Virus record (IMG/VR): IMGVR_UViG_3300046010_011271
Location: 1-37,503 of that record
DNA: 37,503 bases
Strand: one strand, 5' to 3'
From: a virus
A program made the translations under genes and the position numbers. The notes below the pieces were generated by a model. That model was not told the origin of the DNA, searched no databases, and was given only the letters and a program-made list of their open reading frames with translations. This document shows, piece by piece, positions 2,136-36,905 of this stretch; the first letter of the stretch is position 1, and each line of letters opens with the position of its first letter.

Positions 2136-3014
2136 CTATTTTATTCTCCTTATTAATTTATATTTCCCTCTTTTAGGATTAACATGGGTCCAAAGAAAAG
2201 GACCTTTATCATCTTCAGGAAAACCATTCCATTCTATCGGTTTGCCATTTTTATAAAAATCATCTTGGAAATTATCTGAAACTGTTTCTATGGGGTATTT
2301 GTTTATTTTTTCATATTGAATAAATCCTTTTTCTCCTGTTTCTGTGTTTTCTATTTCATATTTCATTATCTCTGGAGGGGAAATAGGAGATTTATGTTTT
2401 TTTAAATATATTCTTTCTTCTTCATATTGAGGTACTTCATCTATTGATATTTCTTTTCCCATACTGTCTAAAATTTTAAACCCATATTTTTTAGTCATTA
2501 ATTTAAAAAAATTTAAATCATTCTTTCCAGAAATATCTTCATCTTCCATTTCAAAATCAATCAAATCAGCATAAAATATTACTTTACCTTTGGGAGAAAG
2601 AGCATCATTTATAGTTTTTGTAAAATTTTCTTGATTAGAAATATAATGAGTAATTTTAGAGGTTATAATATTTGGAACTTTTGGTAAAGAAATATAATTA
2701 TTTAAATTATGTTGAATATAATATACTTCATTATATTCTTCATTTAAGCCATAATCAACTGCTTCTTCACCAAATTCATCTGGACTCATTGTATCAATAT
2801 GGACATATCCTTCTTCTTCAGGCATTCCTCCACCCCCCATATTATAACCTATAATATTTGAAGGTAATGAAGAGATAGTTTCATATTTATATTCATTGTC
2901 ATTAAACGTAAAATAATATATCTTACTAGATGGTGATTCATTTAATTTAGCATTATATTGACTTTCAGTAATAATACCTGAAAGGAATTGCATACGTATG
3001 AGTTCTTTATTCAT
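2136..3014 (-). CDS. Unknown protein with possible capsid-targeting N-terminus, weakly methyltransferase-like
   Basis: A 292-aa protein I cannot assign firmly. Residues 1-26 (MNKELIRMQFLSGIITESQY, then NAKLNE) form a short amphipathic leader ending in L-N-E. That fits the (L/I)-x-E cleavage consensus of T4-type prohead proteases, so the protein could be a packaged internal head protein. The middle (about 50-185) has a Gly-rich stretch GGGGMPEEEGYVHID, then SKITHYISN, a helix and LSPKGKVIFYADL. This order resembles a degenerate class I SAM-dependent methyltransferase core, but motif I is not canonical. The C-terminal third is charged and ends in a basic tail. It lies between the 153-aa unknown and the gp32 gene, away from the head genes. 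Function unproven. Confidence 0.7.
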   Translation of the reverse strand: MNKELIRMQFLSGIITESQYNAKLNESPSSKIYYFTFNDNEYKYETISSLPSNIIGYNMGGGGMPEEEGYVHIDTMSPDEFGEEAVDYGLNEEYNEVYYIQHNLNNYISLPKVPNIITSKITHYISNQENFTKTINDALSPKGKVIFYADLIDFEMEDEDISGKNDLNFFKLMTKKYGFKILDSMGKEISIDEVPQYEEERIYLKKHKSPISPPEIMKYEIENTETGEKGFIQYEKINKYPIETVSDNFQDDFYKNGKPIEWNGFPEDDKGPFLWTHVNPKRGKYKLIRRIK

Positions 3015-11859: not shown

Positions 11860-11872
11860 AATATTATTTTGT

Positions 11873-11883
11873 TTATAAATATT
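11873..11883 (-). promoter_or_regulatory. Candidate late promoter element upstream of the 71-aa gene
   Basis: The minus strand reads AATATTTATAAAC here, 14 to 24 nt before the ATG. It is one of a family of similar elements upstream of many genes in the window and resembles the T4 late -10 box TATAAATA. Confidence 0.4.
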
Positions 11884-27955: not shown

Positions 27956-28651
27956 TTAGTCTCTATATTCCTCATATATTTTTAATATTCCCTCTACAGC
28001 CTCATGTCTATGGTTTTTTAATAATGTTATAGTTTTTACATTATCTGTTTTACTTTCAAGTATTTTAAAGAAACTTATACCTGATTCTTTTTTATTTTTT
28101 AAATCCACTTGGGTAATATCCCCACAAAAAACCATTTTCCCATTTTTTCCTAAACGACCTATCATCATTTCAGTTTGGGAATGTGTTATATTTTGACATT
28201 CATCTACAATAATCATTGAGTTAGGGAATGTTCTACCTCGCATAAATGCAAATGGTACTATCTCTATAATATCTTCTTCAACTAATTTTTCAACTTTTTC
28301 TTTATTATATAGCATTCCTAAATTAGCATATATAGGAGCTAACCATGGGTCCATTTTATCTTTTAAATCTCCTGGGAGGAAACCAATTTCTTCTTTAGCT
28401 ACTGTTGGGCGGGTTATGATTATTTTTTCAATTTCTTTATTGAATAATAAATCAAGAGCTATTTGACATGCTAATAAAGTTTTCCCTGAACCAGCCATTC
28501 CTCTAACTAATGTAATGGGAGTATGAAGGATTTGTTCTTTGGCTTTTTTCTGTTCTTCGTTTAATGAAATATTAAATTTGATTGGTCCTTTTGGTTTTCT
28601 TTTTTCTTTAAAAACTTCTTGGGCTTGAGGAGTTCTGTTATAATCAGTCAT
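27956..28651 (-). CDS. phoH: PhoH-family ATPase
   Basis: A 231-aa P-loop ATPase of the PhoH family. Walker A GMAGSGKT is at 51-58. The family motif IIITRPTVAKEEIGFLPGDL, with KDKMDPWLAPIY, lies at about 77-108. Walker B MIIVDECQN is at 146-154. A sensor-like GDITQVDLKNKKESG follows near 180-200. PhoH-like genes are common in aquatic phages; the biochemical role is unsettled, with RNA metabolism or helicase-related activity proposed for the family. It lies after the kinase-like gene, and the 33-bp sequence around its start is nearly identical to that of the kinase-like gene. The family call is very strong. Confidence 0.93.
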   Translation of the reverse strand: MTDYNRTPQAQEVFKEKRKPKGPIKFNISLNEEQKKAKEQILHTPITLVRGMAGSGKTLLACQIALDLLFNKEIEKIIITRPTVAKEEIGFLPGDLKDKMDPWLAPIYANLGMLYNKEKVEKLVEEDIIEIVPFAFMRGRTFPNSMIIVDECQNITHSQTEMMIGRLGKNGKMVFCGDITQVDLKNKKESGISFFKILESKTDNVKTITLLKNHRHEAVEGILKIYEEYRD

Positions 28652-28663
28652 AAACTTTAGTTT

Positions 28664-28676
28664 GTTGATAAATATG
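28664..28676 (-). promoter_or_regulatory. Candidate promoter/leader element upstream of phoH
   Basis: The minus strand reads CATATTTATCAAC, inside the 33-bp repeat, 13-25 nt before the phoH ATG. It is a variant of the recurring TATTTATAA element with C in place of A. Confidence 0.35.
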
Positions 28677-28681
28677 AAAAA

Positions 28682-29398
28682 TTAACTATTTATTATATCC
28701 GTAAATACAATAGTATTTCCTCTCATTAAAAAATTTCCTGGGGTAGGGTCTAAAGTTCCAGAATCAATAATATCTTCCATATCTAAAGCAGTATTTAAAT
28801 CATTTTTTATACCTACTAATTGGTTTAGGAAATTGTATTTTTTAATAGTGGGTTCTACTGATGGGTCTAATTCTAATAATACTTTTTCTATTTCATCAAT
28901 TTCTATTAATCCTTCTAAAAAATTATCCAAATAAGGTGCTTTTTTATTATAATTAGGAAATAACATCACAAATAAATTAAATAAATCTTTAGGCAATTCA
29001 GTTAAATATTCTAATACAATTACTCCAGCATATTTACTACGTTTAGACCATTCTTTCCTTACCCCTTCAGTATAATGAATTGTATTATATATTTTAGGTA
29101 AATGTTTAAAATTTGTTCCTAATAAATCATCAGCAATATATACATCATAAACATTTTTTGTAATCTTAATAACTTTATCAGAATTACCTATTCTAAAAAC
29201 TTTTCCATTAGCACCACTTCCTAAAAAAGAATGTTCTTCATCATATTTAGTTATTGGAGTTAAATCTCTTTTATATTGATTAAATAATTTAATAAAATCA
29301 TTCCATGTTTTTGCTTTATTAAAATCAGATAAAGTAAATTCATTTAATATATTAGTAATTTCTTCTTTTATTAATAATTTTAAGTTAGATTTTTTCAT
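28682..29398 (-). CDS. Compact protein-kinase-like protein with capsid-targeting-like leader
   Basis: A 238-aa protein with kinase-fold motifs in order. The glycine loop FLGSGANGKVF is at 58-68. The strand DKVIKIT has K78 as the likely ATP-binding lysine. VIVLEYL at 126-132 fits the hinge strand. The catalytic loop LDPTPGNFLM has D217 and N222 in the D-x4-N spacing of kinases. IVFTDI has D234 in the DFG position. The usual His before the catalytic Asp is absent. The chain stops four residues after D234, so the C-lobe is minimal. Residues 1-20 (KSNLKLLIKEEITNILNE) form an amphipathic helix ending L-N-E, like a prohead-protease-cleaved targeting peptide. It sits between the capsid terminator and phoH. 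Likely a phosphotransferase; substrate unknown. Confidence 0.75.
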   Translation of the reverse strand: MKKSNLKLLIKEEITNILNEFTLSDFNKAKTWNDFIKLFNQYKRDLTPITKYDEEHSFLGSGANGKVFRIGNSDKVIKITKNVYDVYIADDLLGTNFKHLPKIYNTIHYTEGVRKEWSKRSKYAGVIVLEYLTELPKDLFNLFVMLFPNYNKKAPYLDNFLEGLIEIDEIEKVLLELDPSVEPTIKKYNFLNQLVGIKNDLNTALDMEDIIDSGTLDPTPGNFLMRGNTIVFTDIINS

Positions 29399-29410
29399 AA
29401 ACTTTTGTTT

Positions 29411-29423
29411 GTTGATAAATATG
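29411..29423 (-). promoter_or_regulatory. Candidate promoter/leader element upstream of the kinase-like gene
   Basis: The same 13-nt sequence as upstream of phoH (minus strand CATATTTATCAAC), 13-25 nt before the ATG and immediately after the capsid-gene terminator, so it is well placed to restart transcription. Confidence 0.38.
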
Positions 29424-29433
29424 AAAAAGATAC

Positions 29434-29459
29434 AAAAAAAGCCTAGGTTTCCCTAGGCT
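29434..29459 (-). terminator. Rho-independent terminator after the major capsid gene
   Basis: On the minus strand AGCCTAGG, loop GAAA, CCTAGGCT, then TTTTTTT: an 8-bp GC-rich stem with a stable tetraloop and a clean U tract, about 30 nt after the capsid stop. This is the clearest terminator in the window and would keep capsid transcripts separate. Confidence 0.88.
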
Positions 29460-29488
29460 CTTTCAAGAAAATATATCTTGTTATTTGA

Positions 29489-31132
29489 TTAAACCGAAGC
29501 CAAATCACTAACAAATACACGACCATAAAATTCTGGACGAATCATTTTCTTAGCGTAACGAGTCAAGAGACCTTTACGTGGAGTAAATGTTTCTGGGTCG
29601 TACACCAATGGAGTCATGATTAATGGAATATATGGAGAGAATACAGCACCTGTTTCCAAGAATTGTGAACCTCTATAACCCATCAAAATCACGTTCTCAG
29701 TCATATAAGGATTCTTATAAACTGTGAAACGGTTATTCAACTGACCTGATTTCTGGATACCAAATGCGTATGACATTTTAGTAGCTTCACCATCTGCTGT
29801 AGATGCGAATCCAGGGATTGATTCAAGAATAGTTGCAACTGATGGAGAAACTACCATAAAGTTAGCACCTCCACGTAGAGTTTTCTGGTGGATTTTGTTG
29901 CTTACTTTTTGTAATTTAGTACCCAAAGTTTGGAACCACTGACCTTGTGTGTTGAAGAAATTCAAATCATCATATCCTGTTCTAGCAGCATTCAATGATT
30001 TGTTACTTATAGCTGACCAATATTCATCAGCAGCAGAAGCATCTTGAATCAACATATCCAAAATTTCAAGGTCAATTTCCAATGAAATATATTCAGACAT
30101 GATAGATGTCAATTCAGCTTCAGCATCTAATGCTTGGTAAGCATTAAGGTCTTGAGCAAACTCAGGAGTCCATTGTGCTTTCAATTTACGTGTTTTAGCC
30201 ACGATAGCCTCACTTTTCAACTGTACGTTGATTTGTGGGATAGACAATTCTGTTTGTGATTGAGCATTTGGGAAACCACCTGAAGTACCTAATTGGTCTT
30301 CGAAATCACCTCTGTAATTATCTGTTGGTTGTACGTTATAGAATACTGTACCAGTACCATTAACTGTACCCGAACCAGAAGCAAAGATAAATGTTGCACT
30401 GTTAGTTCCGTTTGTAGATGTAAATTGTGGTAAGATATATTCTGGATCAGCAGTAGAACCACTAAGTACAAATGCACGAACACCTTTAAAATCAGCGTTT
30501 GTAGGTACTGTAACTGTTACTTTTCTTAAGTTACCCAAAGAGGCAGACAATTCAGCAGTATACTCTACATCCGCCCATTGAACTGAAGCAGTTACGAATG
30601 TAGAACTAGTTGTGAATTGGTTAACTGAGTAACCGAAACGACCAGCACCGTAAAGACCACCATTTGGATCAACGTTAGCACCTGGGTTAGTATCACCGTA
30701 CATAGAAGCAGGAGATGTAAATACACCACCAGGACCACCAAATTGAAGTTGTTTTGTTTGATCGTATTGGAAATCAAGGAAGAATACTAGACCTGAAGGC
30801 AAGTTCATAGGTTGAACAGATACAAACTCTTTTGTAGAGATTGAACCGAATACCTTACGTACCAAAGGAAGAGCAACTCCAGCCCATTGAGCACCAGTAC
30901 CTACGTTGAATGTACCTGTTCCAGCACCACCAACAGTGTTTGTTGAAGATTCAACAACAAGTTGTTTTGCTTGGTTTTCAAGGATCATAGACATGTTGTT
31001 TTTATCAACCTCGCTACCAAGGCCTTCTAACAAACCTGTCTTACCCCATTTTGCAGCTAAACGAGCTGCATCACTCTGCATGTTTTTCCATCCAGAAGCA
31101 GAGCTTTCTAAAAGTGAATTAATGTTTGACAT
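29489..31132 (-). CDS. 23: Major capsid protein (gp23-like)
   Basis: A 547-aa capsid protein, close to T4 gp23 (521 aa). The N-terminal prodomain starts MSNINSLLESSASGWKNMQS. KNNMSMILENQAKQLVVE ends at E61; cleavage after E61 (V-V-E, then SSTN) corresponds to the T4 cleavage after E65, and the ENQ segment is also shared. The shell part begins with GTGAQWAGVALPLVRKVFGS and VSVQPMNLPSGLVFFLDFQY, the gp23 signature. The end, LLTRYAKKMIRPEFYGRVFV, is also typical. The codon choice looks less AT-biased than the neighbours, as expected for a highly expressed gene. The leader before the ATG is A-rich (ACAAAAAAACAAAAACACA). It follows scaffold and precedes the strong terminator. Confidence 0.96.
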   Translation of the reverse strand: MSNINSLLESSASGWKNMQSDAARLAAKWGKTGLLEGLGSEVDKNNMSMILENQAKQLVVESSTNTVGGAGTGTFNVGTGAQWAGVALPLVRKVFGSISTKEFVSVQPMNLPSGLVFFLDFQYDQTKQLQFGGPGGVFTSPASMYGDTNPGANVDPNGGLYGAGRFGYSVNQFTTSSTFVTASVQWADVEYTAELSASLGNLRKVTVTVPTNADFKGVRAFVLSGSTADPEYILPQFTSTNGTNSATFIFASGSGTVNGTGTVFYNVQPTDNYRGDFEDQLGTSGGFPNAQSQTELSIPQINVQLKSEAIVAKTRKLKAQWTPEFAQDLNAYQALDAEAELTSIMSEYISLEIDLEILDMLIQDASAADEYWSAISNKSLNAARTGYDDLNFFNTQGQWFQTLGTKLQKVSNKIHQKTLRGGANFMVVSPSVATILESIPGFASTADGEATKMSYAFGIQKSGQLNNRFTVYKNPYMTENVILMGYRGSQFLETGAVFSPYIPLIMTPLVYDPETFTPRKGLLTRYAKKMIRPEFYGRVFVSDLASV

Positions 31133-31170: not shown

Positions 31171-32418
31171 TTAAATAATACCAGCCAATTTTTGGAATCG
31201 AGCAACCATGTTGTCTGATTCGATTATCGGTTGTTTTGAGTTTGTCGTTCCTACAATTTTGGAAGCCATACCTAAAGATTCTTTAATTGGTGATTTTTTA
31301 GTTTTAAGTCCCTCGCTTAATGTTTCAAATACCAATTTAGTTTCTTTAACAGTTGTTGCTTTGTCAAAAGATGTAAGAATGTTCAATTTTTGACTTTCAG
31401 TTAAGTTTTTAGCTGAATTAAAAATCTTGTTTGTGTAAAGCAATTTAGCATTTAATAAATTAACTTCGTTCAAGTCAGTACGTAATGTTTCGATAGTTTT
31501 AAGAGCTTCTTTTAACTCTTTTTTCATACCCTCATTACGAGCAATACTAATTGAACCTTTAGTTCCTGCTGCTAGTTTTTGTAATAATGATCTTGAATCT
31601 CCGAATAATTCTCTTTTAAATTCACTCATATTACCAATAACGTCTGCATCAACACCATCAGCTTTAAGTTTTTTAAATTCTGTGAATGCTTTTTGTAGAA
31701 GTGGATCAGCCATTTGTTTCTTTTTAGCTGGGTCTGTTTCTTGAGCAATTGCTTCTATTGTACTTTTATTATCAGCCATTAGTTGAGCAATTACTGTTTC
31801 AAAGTTTCTTTTAGATTTTTTACCTAGACCAAAAATTTCTTCTAAATCTTCCTCCATCATATCATCATCCATCATGTCATATTCCATCATGTCGTCATCC
31901 ATCATATCGTCATTAAAATCAGCAATTTCTGCTAGTAATTCATCTAAATCAACTTCCTCATCTTCAACTTCCTCATCTTCCATTTCTTCACCTTCTTCTT
32001 CACCTTCTTCTTCACCTTCTCCGGCTTCGATTTCTCCAGCTTCGATCATATCAGCGATTACATCTTCGATAAGTTTTTTAAGATCTTCATCCGTCATATC
32101 TTCTAAATCTAACGGTTCACCTTCTTCAGATTCCATTTCGTCTTCTTCAGATTCCATTTCATCTTCTTCATTTAGCTCATTTAAAAGTTCATTTAAATCT
32201 AAATCTTCATCCATCATTTCTTCTTCTTCATAGATATTTTCTTCGATTTCTTGTTCATCGATTTCTTCTTCCATTTCTTGAAGTTTTGCTGAGAGCATGG
32301 ATTTTAATTGAGGTGTAAATGCTTCTTCTAGAGCTGCTTTTGCATTAGCTATTGCCATTTCTTTCACGGCTTTAGCATCTGCGATTGCTTCTTTAAGCAA
32401 ATCTCTGTTTGTTGCCAT
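31171..32418 (-). CDS. 22: Prohead scaffold protein (gp22-like)
   Basis: A 415-aa acidic protein (T4 gp22 is 269 aa). It begins MATNRDLLKEAIADAKAVKE in an Ala-rich helix. A very acidic centre (about 50-195) follows, with repeats of EDEMESEE, GEEEGEEEGEE and MMDDDMMEYDMMDDDMMEED. The C-terminal helical half (195-415) contains KKQMADPLLQKAFTEFKKLK and TLRTDLNEVNLLNAKLLYTN with a typical scaffold helix KIFNSAKNLTESQKLNILTS. The scaffold assembles inside the prohead and is digested by the gp21-like protease, whose gene is just upstream. The order gp21-gp22-gp23 is as in T4. The length excess is from the acidic repeats. Confidence 0.88.
   Translation of the reverse strand: MATNRDLLKEAIADAKAVKEMAIANAKAALEEAFTPQLKSMLSAKLQEMEEEIDEQEIEENIYEEEEMMDEDLDLNELLNELNEEDEMESEEDEMESEEGEPLDLEDMTDEDLKKLIEDVIADMIEAGEIEAGEGEEEGEEEGEEMEDEEVEDEEVDLDELLAEIADFNDDMMDDDMMEYDMMDDDMMEEDLEEIFGLGKKSKRNFETVIAQLMADNKSTIEAIAQETDPAKKKQMADPLLQKAFTEFKKLKADGVDADVIGNMSEFKRELFGDSRSLLQKLAAGTKGSISIARNEGMKKELKEALKTIETLRTDLNEVNLLNAKLLYTNKIFNSAKNLTESQKLNILTSFDKATTVKETKLVFETLSEGLKTKKSPIKESLGMASKIVGTTNSKQPIIESDNMVARFQKLAGII
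31856..32171. repeat. Short tandem acidic-codon repeats in the scaffold gene
   Basis: Three runs of short repeats encode the acidic centre: Met-Met-Asp/Glu units around 31856-31912, Gly-Glu-Glu units around 31985-32030 and EDEMESEE units around 32123-32171. They may vary in copy number by slippage. The complementary strand appears as a long serine-rich open frame that is not a gene. Confidence 0.75.
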
Positions 32419-32611: not shown

Positions 32612-33229
32612 TTACCAGATTGGGCAAGAACCTTGTGAACAAAGGATCTCAGTAACGATTGAGTTTACTTTAGAATATTTAGTAAGATTTTTTATTTGAG
32701 ATTCATTTAATGATTCTCTTACTAAATTCATATATGAACCAGGATTGGAAGGAGTAGAAACAAAATCCCAACAAAGAAGTTCGAAATCGTCTTGTACCTC
32801 AAGTACTCCATCATTTTCTTTCAATGAACCCATCCCACGAGAAGATACACCAACTGTAATACCACTTTCAATTAATGCTTTTAAAATATTTCCTGATGGT
32901 GTAGGGAGGATTTCAATATGACCCATTATATTATCACCATCCCACCAAACTTTAGATATATTATGAGATACATTTTTAAGGTTGATGATTTGAGATTCTG
33001 GATGGTCTAGTTCTCCTAATGCTCTTTTTTCTTTAATATATTGAGAATATTTATCCATTTCTCTTTCCCATAAATCTTTTTTGTAATATCTTCCATTACC
33101 GTTTTTAATTTCAACAGTAGCTAAGATACCTTCTACAATTGGATTACCTCGTTCAGATCGTTTACTTTCTGTTAAAGAAAATTTACCTGAGGAAAATAGT
33201 TGGGTTTCTATTAATATTTGTTTGTTCAT
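32612..33229 (-). CDS. 21: Prohead core protease (gp21-like)
   Basis: A 205-aa protease, close to T4 gp21 (212 aa). It digests the scaffold and trims head proteins during maturation. I chose the ATG at 33229 (MNKQILIETQ), which comes right after the upstream stop; a TTG start six codons earlier would overlap that gene. The catalytic motif GELDHPE has His76 and GVSSRGMGS has Ser129/Ser130, and a WDFVSTPSNPG block follows, with D155 as a likely third residue. The early block EGILATVEIKNGNGRYY is also typical of the S78/U9-type prohead proteases. It lies in the classical gp20-gp21-gp22-gp23 order, with a terminator directly after it. Confidence 0.92.
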   Translation of the reverse strand: MNKQILIETQLFSSGKFSLTESKRSERGNPIVEGILATVEIKNGNGRYYKKDLWEREMDKYSQYIKEKRALGELDHPESQIINLKNVSHNISKVWWDGDNIMGHIEILPTPSGNILKALIESGITVGVSSRGMGSLKENDGVLEVQDDFELLCWDFVSTPSNPGSYMNLVRESLNESQIKNLTKYSKVNSIVTEILCSQGSCPIW

Positions 33230-33230
33230 G

Positions 33231-35570
33231 TTAAATATCGTAATCAAGTCCTAAATCGTATCCTTTTAAAAATTCAACAACACTTTCTTCATATTCAGGG
33301 AAATTTGATGCTATGTTAATAATTTCATCTGAGTCTCCATTTACATCTGCAAACATTTCTACTGCTTGATTTATAATATTTTGAGGTAATTCACCTTCAT
33401 TTTCAAACATATCTTTTGTTTTAGTAGATATATCTTCTACTTTTTTTCCTATGTCATCTAAACTTTTAGAGGTATCATCTAATTTTTTATCATCTATAGC
33501 TTCATCAATAGGTGCATCCTCATCTATTATATCAGAAGAAACTGCATCTTTATTTTTTTTCTTAATTTTAGATAAATCTTTTTCTAATTTAGCTTTTGCT
33601 TTCTCTAAAGTTTTAATGTCTTTTTGTGCTTGTTTGATTTTTGTTTTATCAGTTAAAGCTTTCATATCTTCATCCTCATCCAATTTATTTAGTTGAGATT
33701 GACGTTTTTCAATAGCTGCATCTATTTTTTCTAATTTGGTTGATATTACTTCACTTTCTGCTTCTTTATTAATAGCTGATAATTCTTTTTCTACTGATTC
33801 ACGGATTACTTTACGTAAAAGTTGTTCTTCTAGTTCCTCAGGAGCGTATTTTTCTTTATCTTTGTATGAAAATCCTAATCCTTCAAACATTGGAGGAGGA
33901 ATTATTGCAATACCACCTTTAGCATTAGGTTTCATATCTTCTAATTGTTTCTTAAATCTTTGTAAAGCTCCAACATTTATAGGACGACCTCTTCGTACTT
34001 CTCCAGAAGTAGCTTTAGTTAGTTTATCATCAATTTCTATTAATTTTTTATCAATCCATTCTTCTAATTTTTCTACTTCATATCCATTTTCTTGAAATCT
34101 AATTTCATGATATAAAACATTTTTTCCAAATGTAGGAATTACTGTGGTTTTAGGTTCAGCGAATTTTTTAAATAATGTTCTTATCATTGGCCAATATCTA
34201 TCAGAAATTTCATTGGTAATAATTTTGAGACGATTTTTATTATCTTGAATTTGTTTTTCTCTAGTACCTCTACCTTTTTCCATTCCTTCTAAAGTAATAT
34301 AAAGTAAATTTGAGATAAAGATGGTATTATTTGGGGTAACTCTAATATGAGGAATTTTTAAAGACTCATTATATGAAGGGGCATTAGAACTTGGGGTTGA
34401 AAGATTAAATGCTTTTCTTACTTCTGGAGTTAGAATATAATATGTGGGGATTTTTTGTTCTCCTTTTTCTAAGTTAGATGTATTGATATTTAAAATCCCA
34501 TAATTACCTCCACCTCTAACTTCTTCTAATTCTTGATCTACTATAGAACGAATAGCTTCACGAATTTCATTTTCTCTTCTTTCTAATTCTTTTCTGCGTT
34601 TTTCTTCTCTATCCGCTTTAATTTGTTCTGGGGATGGTTTTGGTTTGTTGGATGGGGTGAATGCTTGTTTTACTCCACTTTTAAATTTTTCTAATTCATC
34701 TAACATTTCATCTCCAAACACTAAATCCCATGATTGTTGATTTTCTGGGTTTGCTATTCCATTATGAATATGCCAACTTGATACATCACTAGTATTTTTA
34801 TCTAAAAAATCATGAAAATATGAACCTTCCATTCTTTCTTCCCAAGAAATTGGGTTTTTATCTAAAGTTAAATTATTTTTTTTTATAAAATGTTTTACCT
34901 GGGTATCTAATGGTTGGTCACTCCAAAGTCCACCTTTTAGTTGGGTTTGAATATTTTCTTTTAAATCACCATACCCACTTGATTTATATTTACCTTTTGG
35001 CTCTTTTGGAGTACCTAAACCTGGATGTTCGGTTGTATATCCTAAACCTTTAACTCCAAATTGACCATCTTTAACATAGTATATAGGATCTTTTGATAAA
35101 TTTTTCAATACAATATCTTTTAATTCTTGCATTGTTTTATTTTCATTTTTTGGATCCTTCATTTCAGCATAATATCCAGTCATAATCTGATCAAATATCA
35201 TGTTATCAAAGTTTTTATCCTCTTTTTTATCTGTTGGTTTAGAAGTTTTTTCTTCTTTTTCTTCAACTTGTTTTGATGGAGTTTTAGCTGTTGCTTTATC
35301 TGATTCCTCTTGTGATTTAGCTGCTTCAGCTAAAAATTTCTCAAATGCGGTTTCAAATGATTCTTTTTTAGTTTCAATTGAGTTGATTGGAGAAAGTCCA
35401 ATTATATTTTCATTAATAACCCCTTTTTGTTTTAGGATTAAGGATACTTCATCAAATGTTGCAGCATTTCGTATATAGTTTGGGAACATTGATTTGGCTT
35501 CTTTTAAGAATACACCTTTATGTCCTTTTCCTTCCTTAATTAGTTGATATTGTTCGTTTAGGGTTTTCAT
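33231..35570 (-). CDS. Large unknown head-associated protein with coiled coils
   Basis: A 779-aa protein inserted between the portal region and the protease gene. N-terminus MKTLNEQYQLIKEGKGHKGV with FLKEAKSMFPNYIRNAATFDE. A charged low-complexity stretch (EKEEKTSKPTDKKEDKNFD) lies near 100-120. A folded part has YHEIRFQENGYEVEKLEEWI near 480. Residues 600-700 are Lys/Glu-rich helices likely to form a coiled coil (AAIEKRQSQLNKLDEDEDMK, KDIKTLEKAKAKLEKDLSKI). The C-terminus is acidic and ends YDLGLDYDI. Composition (Lys/Glu-rich, helical) suits an internal head core or scaffold-like protein, and its position supports that. No enzymatic motif seen. It shares one base (TAATG) with the upstream gene's stop. 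Confidence 0.8.
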   Translation of the reverse strand: MKTLNEQYQLIKEGKGHKGVFLKEAKSMFPNYIRNAATFDEVSLILKQKGVINENIIGLSPINSIETKKESFETAFEKFLAEAAKSQEESDKATAKTPSKQVEEKEEKTSKPTDKKEDKNFDNMIFDQIMTGYYAEMKDPKNENKTMQELKDIVLKNLSKDPIYYVKDGQFGVKGLGYTTEHPGLGTPKEPKGKYKSSGYGDLKENIQTQLKGGLWSDQPLDTQVKHFIKKNNLTLDKNPISWEERMEGSYFHDFLDKNTSDVSSWHIHNGIANPENQQSWDLVFGDEMLDELEKFKSGVKQAFTPSNKPKPSPEQIKADREEKRRKELERRENEIREAIRSIVDQELEEVRGGGNYGILNINTSNLEKGEQKIPTYYILTPEVRKAFNLSTPSSNAPSYNESLKIPHIRVTPNNTIFISNLLYITLEGMEKGRGTREKQIQDNKNRLKIITNEISDRYWPMIRTLFKKFAEPKTTVIPTFGKNVLYHEIRFQENGYEVEKLEEWIDKKLIEIDDKLTKATSGEVRRGRPINVGALQRFKKQLEDMKPNAKGGIAIIPPPMFEGLGFSYKDKEKYAPEELEEQLLRKVIRESVEKELSAINKEAESEVISTKLEKIDAAIEKRQSQLNKLDEDEDMKALTDKTKIKQAQKDIKTLEKAKAKLEKDLSKIKKKNKDAVSSDIIDEDAPIDEAIDDKKLDDTSKSLDDIGKKVEDISTKTKDMFENEGELPQNIINQAVEMFADVNGDSDEIINIASNFPEYEESVVEFLKGYDLGLDYDI

Positions 35571-36028
35571 TATTCTTCTTCTGTTAATAGGGTTTTTATA
35601 TCTTTTATATAATCTAAAATTAAATCTGTTGGGATGTAAACTTCATATGAACCTGGATTTTCATTGTAAAATTCTGCAGTTTCATTTTTTTTATTTGATA
35701 GGATAGGTAAAAGGGAGTTTATTTCTTTTTCTATTTTAGTAAATGCATTAATTCTTTCTTGTTGAAATTCATTATATTCATTTAATGTATCTTCTTCAAA
35801 TAATTTTTTTACTTCTAATCCTGATCCTTTAATTTTTTTAGGGACTGCTTTCCATCCCAATTTATAATAATAGTGTCTTTTTACTCCATCCATATTAGTA
35901 CCTTTTTTAAAAGAATATTTATCAGCATATTGTGCTCCCTCACCTGCTGTGAATGTAGCCCCTCCAGTACCTGTAGATGAAAGTTCTTGGAGTTTTTGTC
36001 TGATAATTTCTTTTATTTTATCACGCAT
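35570..36028 (-). CDS. Unknown head-associated protein with possible cleavage site
   Basis: A 152-aa protein. Residues 1-15 (MRDKIKEIIRQKLQE) form an amphipathic leader ending L-Q-E, consistent with the prohead protease consensus. The next residues, LSSTGTGGATFTAGEGAQYA, closely resemble those after the capsid protein's candidate cleavage site (SSTNTVGGAGTGTFNVGTGA, then QWA). Then come YYYKLGWKAVPKKIKGSGLE and a long helical tail with acidic end. The start gives an 8-nt ATGCGTGA overlap with the upstream gene. I infer a small internal head protein processed on maturation. No enzymatic motif. Confidence 0.78.
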   Translation of the reverse strand: MRDKIKEIIRQKLQELSSTGTGGATFTAGEGAQYADKYSFKKGTNMDGVKRHYYYKLGWKAVPKKIKGSGLEVKKLFEEDTLNEYNEFQQERINAFTKIEKEINSLLPILSNKKNETAEFYNENPGSYEVYIPTDLILDYIKDIKTLLTEEE

Positions 36029-36875: not shown

Positions 36876-36894
36876 TCTATTTCAATTAATTTGT

Positions 36895-36905
36895 TTATAA
36901 ATATA
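36895..36905 (-). promoter_or_regulatory. Candidate late promoter element upstream of the 284-aa gene
   Basis: The minus strand reads AATATATTTATAAACAAATT, 20 to 30 nt before the ATG and just after the portal stop. It is a member of the recurring element family. Confidence 0.4.

Follow-up and report, generated by a model that had tools for sequence, protein, structure and literature searches.

Does a T4-like phage carry a small protein kinase inside its head and deliver it with its DNA? The question is raised by an open reading frame (ORF) of 238 amino acids (aa; positions 28682..29398, minus strand) in the IMG/VR virus record IMGVR_UViG_3300046010_011271, positions 1-37,503. This whole stretch of 37,503 bases is referred to below as the window; it is a fragment of a T4-like phage with its structural genes on the minus strand. 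An earlier note, whose length and strand for the ORF agree with ours, had described the product as a candidate kinase with a short N-terminal targeting peptide, packaged into the prohead, trimmed and injected. The precedent is T4, in which short N-terminal sequences steer Alt and the internal proteins into the prohead and are cut off by gp21 after L/I-x-E; many of the proteins so packaged are then ejected into the host (PMC9026906). We put a probability of about 0.6 on the reading that this small kinase-like effector is head cargo of a T4-like phage and carries a capsid-targeting propeptide; its packaging, cleavage, injection, catalysis and targets we infer. We also lean towards a broader view, in which environmental T4-like phages, probably of Bacteroidota, would use a portable address code of at least two unrelated N-terminal propeptides (possibly three) to send dozens of unrelated effectors into the prohead for trimming and injection, the minimal kinase, with at least two changes of tag, being one cargo.

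The N-terminal tag and its exchange

The tag comprises residues 1-20 of the kinase-like protein (MKKSNLKLLIKEEITNILNE; 29339..29398, minus strand), with a predicted cut between E20 and F21. It had been noted as a helix ending in L-N-E, and a low-confidence AlphaFold2 (AF2) model does place residues 5-20 in a helix. IMG/VR holds five loci homologous to the ORF (L001-L004 and L020), four of them distinct. The kinase bodies of L003, L004 and L020 are 72-74% identical to that of the window, whereas their first residues differ (MENSFNLKKFLAEGKMLKE, MENTFNLKQFLAEGKMLKE and MIYLKEIIKEILIQE, respectively, vs MKKSNLKLLIKEEITNILNE in the window; tag identity 7-8 of 20), the replacement falling exactly at the tag boundary. 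There are three different N-terminal peptides among the relatives, each with a terminal (L/I)-x-E directly before the conserved body, which begins FT, and in L003 two unrelated neighbouring genes bear the same MENxF tag as the kinase homologue. The case for an N-terminal peptide ending in (L/I)-x-E is thus stronger than the earlier note had it: the tag is modular, is swapped among homologues and has its boundary at the T4 gp21 motif. An early ungapped comparison of the tag with the N-termini of the window and of genome G001 alone had little power.

The peptide of the window belongs to what we call class A (consensus MKKSELKQIIKEEIxKVLNE). The search pattern for this class, M-K-K-S-x-L-(K/R)-x-(I/L)-I-(K/R)-E-E-(I/L), ends at residue 14 and was found in at least 119 stretches of IMG/VR, with a chance expectation estimated from pattern information at ~0.001; these stretches encode at least 95 non-redundant proteins in at least 83 unrelated body clusters (clustering at E 1e-3, residues 25 onward). 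Positions 15-20 are conserved as xKVLNE although they lie outside the pattern, and information, still 1.4 bits at position 20, is down to 0.4 at 21 and 0.25 at 22. An (L/I)-x-E motif lies inside residues 15-28 in 63 of the 83 class A clusters listed (76%; exactly at 20 in 44), vs a mean of 10% in control windows. Judged from these comparisons, the tag is shown to be a detachable module common to unrelated proteins, bounded at (L/I)-x-E. The first 20 residues of the kinase match the tag of at least 83 unrelated protein clusters, which suggests loading of the kinase into the head, trimming and injection into the host.

Neither the class A pattern nor that of class B (below) was matched in T4, the cyanophages Syn9, P-SSM2 and S-PM2, pelagiphage HTVC008M, RM378, Mel-JY01, T7 or Bacillus phage 019DV002. 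The tag gave no match by tblastn against phage isolates, a search in which so short a query cannot reach E 10, and the tag sequences tried gave none in the open-licence PMC literature. In L109 (626-2543) seven successive small genes each start with a class A tag, an apparent cargo cassette.

Other kinase homologues bear a second tag, class B (MENFDLKKYLAEGKLLKE). The class B pattern, F-(N/D)-L-K-K-(F/Y)-L-x-E-(G/N/S)-K, does not include the start codon; it occurs in 120 stretches of IMG/VR, and 87 of the 90 matches examined (63 body clusters) start 2-4 codons past an ATG. The place of a second (L/I)-x-E is fixed, at 14/15 or 20/21. Another N-terminus common to several proteins, RMQxLAGIITES, may represent a third tag class: it is present in a 292-aa protein of the window (RMQFLSGIITES; 2136..3014, minus strand), in genome G001 (119579-119884, 127339-128004) and in Flavobacterium phage immuto (25061-25456, 111675-112139).

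Relation to the prohead protease

A prohead protease of family S77 (gp21 type; 32612..33229, minus strand; Pfam PF03420, E 5.7e-29; phrog_207, E 1e-60) is encoded ~3 kb from the kinase gene and is the predicted tag-cutting enzyme. Among the matches listed, 27 of 42 tag-bearing contigs of at least 30 kb have such a protease, as do 11 of 12 contigs >100 kb (12 of 13 with G001); in the set checked for both S77 and gp23, the sole contig without the former is also without the latter. On contigs of at least 60 kb, 33 of the 47 class A tags listed lie within 20 kb of the protease, where 14 would be expected (p 2e-4 if the tags are taken as independent). Most of the tag-bearing records are fragments.

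The 293-kb genome G006, the contig of L068, has eight to nine class-A-tagged genes at 251-265 kb around gp21 (256 kb) and gp23. G023, G024 and G029 (contigs of L101, L104 and L128) each have 5-15 class A tags and a prohead protease whose frame continues through 2-3 in-frame TGA codons, which suggests that these phages recode TGA.

In the alignment of the major capsid protein gp23 (29489..31132, minus strand; Pfam PF07068, E 9.5e-75; N-terminal alignment) a conserved N-terminal stretch stops at an invariant E (QLVVE/S, QIVSE/A, QLISE/A, the slash marking its end), and E61 of the window protein (QLVVE/S) is the likely processing site. This suggests that the S77 protease here also cleaves after glutamate and tolerates V at P3.

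Is the protein a kinase?

The motifs reported previously stand at the positions given: glycine loop G60-S-G-A-N-G-K-V-F68, K78, D217-P-T-P-G-N222 and D234. K78, D217, N222 and D234 are invariant across all homologues; A63 of the glycine loop is K in two of three lineages, and the other motif residues are kept in the four distinct homologues. Residues 57-137 (28988..29230, minus strand) resemble the N-terminal lobe (N-lobe) of kinases and contain the glycine loop, K78, LPKIYN and VIVLEYL. Over this region hhalign aligned the window family with an alignment of ten phage kinases at 91% probability (score 48.9), controls with 100 column-shuffled alignments reaching at most a score of 22.8 and a probability of 2.9%. 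In blastp a kinase of an Alicyclobacillus phage was matched at E 3e-4, with LGSGANGKVF on LGSGANGEVF; a search of known phages with a limit of E 1 gave a single match, to a 'serine/threonine kinase' of a Bacillus phage (E 0.1) that is in turn related to Pkinase (E 1e-4). By these comparisons the N-lobe is significantly related to phage kinases, and this half of the proposed kinase identity holds.

The other half stands less firmly. The catalytic-loop-like segment D217-x4-N222 ... D234 (28697..28750, minus strand) is conserved in all homologues, and MAFFT, unprompted, places DPTPGNFLMRGNTIVFTDI on DLHPGNVMLTNNGEFVIIDVG (in a phage kinase, DLHPGN..IIDVG); taken by itself, the D-x4-N...D pattern is modest evidence, as hhalign misses that segment. 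Alignments with full-length kinases added misplaced the catalytic loop and hence were not used as evidence. AF2 was run with five close homologues and again with four phage-kinase N-lobes added; Foldseek found no meaningful match for the first model (mean predicted local distance difference test, pLDDT, 48). Searches of the protein against Pfam, PHROG, NCBIfam, PADLOC and PDB sequences returned nothing significant, and a scan of a genome collection for cellular homologues found none.

As had been noted, the protein stops at S238, four residues past D234 (4-6 past the equivalent residue in homologues), so that the C-terminal lobe (C-lobe; activation segment, helix F) is absent. Kinases without the C-terminal subdomain but with active-site residues have been described as Kinase-PolyVal domains, which occur in Bacteroidetes phages and are predicted to be injected (PMC5512222). 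The early end is therefore real and unusual, not unprecedented, and phage kinases lacking a C-lobe also appear in the phage-kinase alignment; what does not stand is its uniqueness.

Proposed mechanism and alternatives

In the mechanism that we propose, residues 1-20 would bind the prohead scaffold core as a capsid-targeting propeptide, the S77 protease would cleave after L18-N19-E20 during head maturation, and the mature protein, F21-S238, would be retained in the head until it passed into the host along with the DNA. In the host it may phosphorylate proteins, for takeover or counter-defence, as T4 Alt ADP-ribosylates RNA polymerase. The earlier idea of a packaged and injected kinase is partly supported, by its N-lobe ancestry, the modular (L/I)-x-E tag, the gp21-type protease in the fragment and the T4 precedents. 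It loses one argument, placement between capsid and phoH as a sign of head-associated expression. Both neighbours are confirmed, gp23 and a PhoH-like gene (27956..28651, minus strand; Pfam PF02562, E 9.5e-63), and L001/L002 have the kinase gene at the same site; its neighbours are ssb and recA genes in L003/L004 and tail genes in L020, giving three different modules across relatives.

Several observations weigh against head cargo. The boundary motif (L/I)-x-E is missing from about a quarter of the class A tags listed, class B tags taken by themselves show no significant proximity to the protease (p 0.34), and the S77 counts are given without a background rate among large IMG/VR contigs. The processing site of gp23 has an apparent V at P3. 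In a shuffle test against the T4 peptide MKTYQEFIAE the window tag is not significant (p 0.48). Virion proteomics of tagged proteins was looked for and none was found. As to the kinase itself, the hhalign profile comparison fails to detect the catalytic-loop segment, and AF2 gave a mean pLDDT of 48 in both runs, with no fold support.

Part of this evidence is shared by an explanation that we hold to be unlikely, though it is the one we take most seriously: the protein is packaged by its tag, and its kinase-like domain is a catalytically dead kinase, or a non-protein kinase, whose role is to bind nucleotide or some partner in the host, perhaps as decoy or inhibitor. The missing C-lobe, the absence of the catalytic-loop H/R and the DFG glycine (LDPTPGN, TDII) and the recovery of the N-lobe alone by profile comparison would all fit; the invariance of K78, D217, N222 and D234 in all homologues and the existence of kinases that retain active-site residues without a C-terminal subdomain (PMC5512222) speak against it. 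We think it quite unlikely that the tag helix serves to dock the protein on a different structure of phage or host (a membrane, the replication centre or the tail), with the protein acting in the infected cell and the protease uninvolved. Such a role would suit a short, helix-like peptide found on some genes of replication or tail modules, and the lack of significant clustering of class B tags near the protease, but it leaves unexplained why conservation ends at (L/I)-x-E and why S77 co-occurs.

The remaining two explanations fare worse. It is improbable that the protein is an ordinary, non-packaged kinase like T7 gp0.7, synthesised during infection, whose N-terminal helix is incidental. T7 gp0.7 and the Bacillus phage kinases do match one family, phrog_18305, and T7 gp0.7 has no direct blastp similarity to the window protein, the link being indirect, via phrog_18305 relatives; against such a kinase stand the sharing of the tag by at least 83 unrelated clusters, its exchange between homologues and the leader that the gene has in common with phoH in the structural region (see below). 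Finally, the shared N-termini might reflect recombination or a start-site cassette, a DNA repeat at start codons without protein function, as several identical tag copies per genome could indicate (three inside G012). We regard this as highly improbable: within one genome class A tag DNA is 91% identical at codon positions 1 and 2 and 72% at position 3, the 30 bases upstream are 44% identical, and the peptide is kept across many contigs. The low upstream identity and the variable third positions point to selection on the peptide and not to a copied DNA cassette.

Comparison with known systems

Like the targeting sequences of T4 IPI-IPIII and Alt (PMC9026906, PMC3012670), the tags are short N-terminal peptides on unrelated proteins, end in (L/I)-x-E and occur with an S77 protease in the same phage. 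They differ in being about twice as long, in serving a far larger cargo repertoire and in being known here from sequence alone. The shuffle test against MKTYQEFIAE gave the class A consensus a p of 0.32, class B 0.13 and the L004 tag 0.03 (weak); since the similarity is otherwise not significant, we describe the tags as working like capsid-targeting sequences and claim no descent from those of T4. Head proteins of the giant phages phiKZ and SPN3US likewise have N-terminal propeptides cut after a short x-x-E by a gp21-related protease, but many of these exceed 100 residues and SPN3US uses A-x-E (PMC5694885).

With the kinases of phrog_18305 and phrog_11167 (Bacillus, Geobacillus, Staphylococcus and Alicyclobacillus phages) and with T7 gp0.7, the window protein shares N-lobe sequence, a compact domain and apparently the D-x4-N...D order; it differs in its longer middle segment, its early end, its N-terminal tag and a catalytic-loop segment unrecovered by profile search. 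In common with Kinase-PolyVal (PF18762; PMC5512222) it has lost the C-lobe and kept active-site residues, but it is single-domain, has no conserved H before the catalytic D and, like its homologues, does not match the Pfam model.

Should the tags prove to be capsid-targeting propeptides, the injected first-strike proteins of a large group of uncultured phages, most of them now unannotated, would be predictable from sequence alone by a simple N-terminal pattern, and the injected proteome, with its kinases and perhaps ADP-ribosyltransferases, would be open to direct tests. A kinase that arrives with the DNA could affect the host ahead of any phage gene expression. A class-A-tagged 210-aa protein in L064 (12872-13501, minus strand) resembles the Tox-ART-HYD1 ADP-ribosyltransferase (E 6.4e-4; 20.8 bits, below the cut-off of 25); it is a possible Alt-like cargo, which would parallel Alt.

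Head cluster and expression elements

By its capsid protein the phage has Flavobacterium phage immuto as nearest cultured relative (58.5% identity), and from immuto alone its host is probably a member of the Bacteroidota. Immuto grows in culture on Flavobacterium sp. LMO8 and has tags of class A, of class B and of the third type (class C). An acidic protein in the scaffold position (gp22-like by position; 31171..32418, minus strand) has 19 (L/I)-x-E sites and no family match in Pfam/PHROG searches. A 152-aa protein of the head cluster (35570..36028, minus strand) has a class-A-like N-terminus (MRDKIKEIIRQKLQE).

At the kinase locus an Rfam search found no match. A 28-nucleotide leader at the kinase start codon (29396..29423, minus strand) recurs at that of phoH (28649..28676, minus strand), both being matches to CATATTTATCAACAAACNAAAGTTTATG with no mismatch; two such copies are present in the window and 0 are expected. 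Between gp23 and the kinase gene lies a terminator-like hairpin (29435..29464, minus strand), for which the evidence is weak because shuffles give 1.6 expected vs 1 found. Leader and hairpin would fit co-regulation of the kinase with phoH, its neighbour in the structural region. The leader TATTTAT(C/A)AACAAA, possibly a late promoter or ribosome-loading element, is found just upstream of several start codons of the structural region, at the two sites above and at 11868-11881 and 36890-36903.
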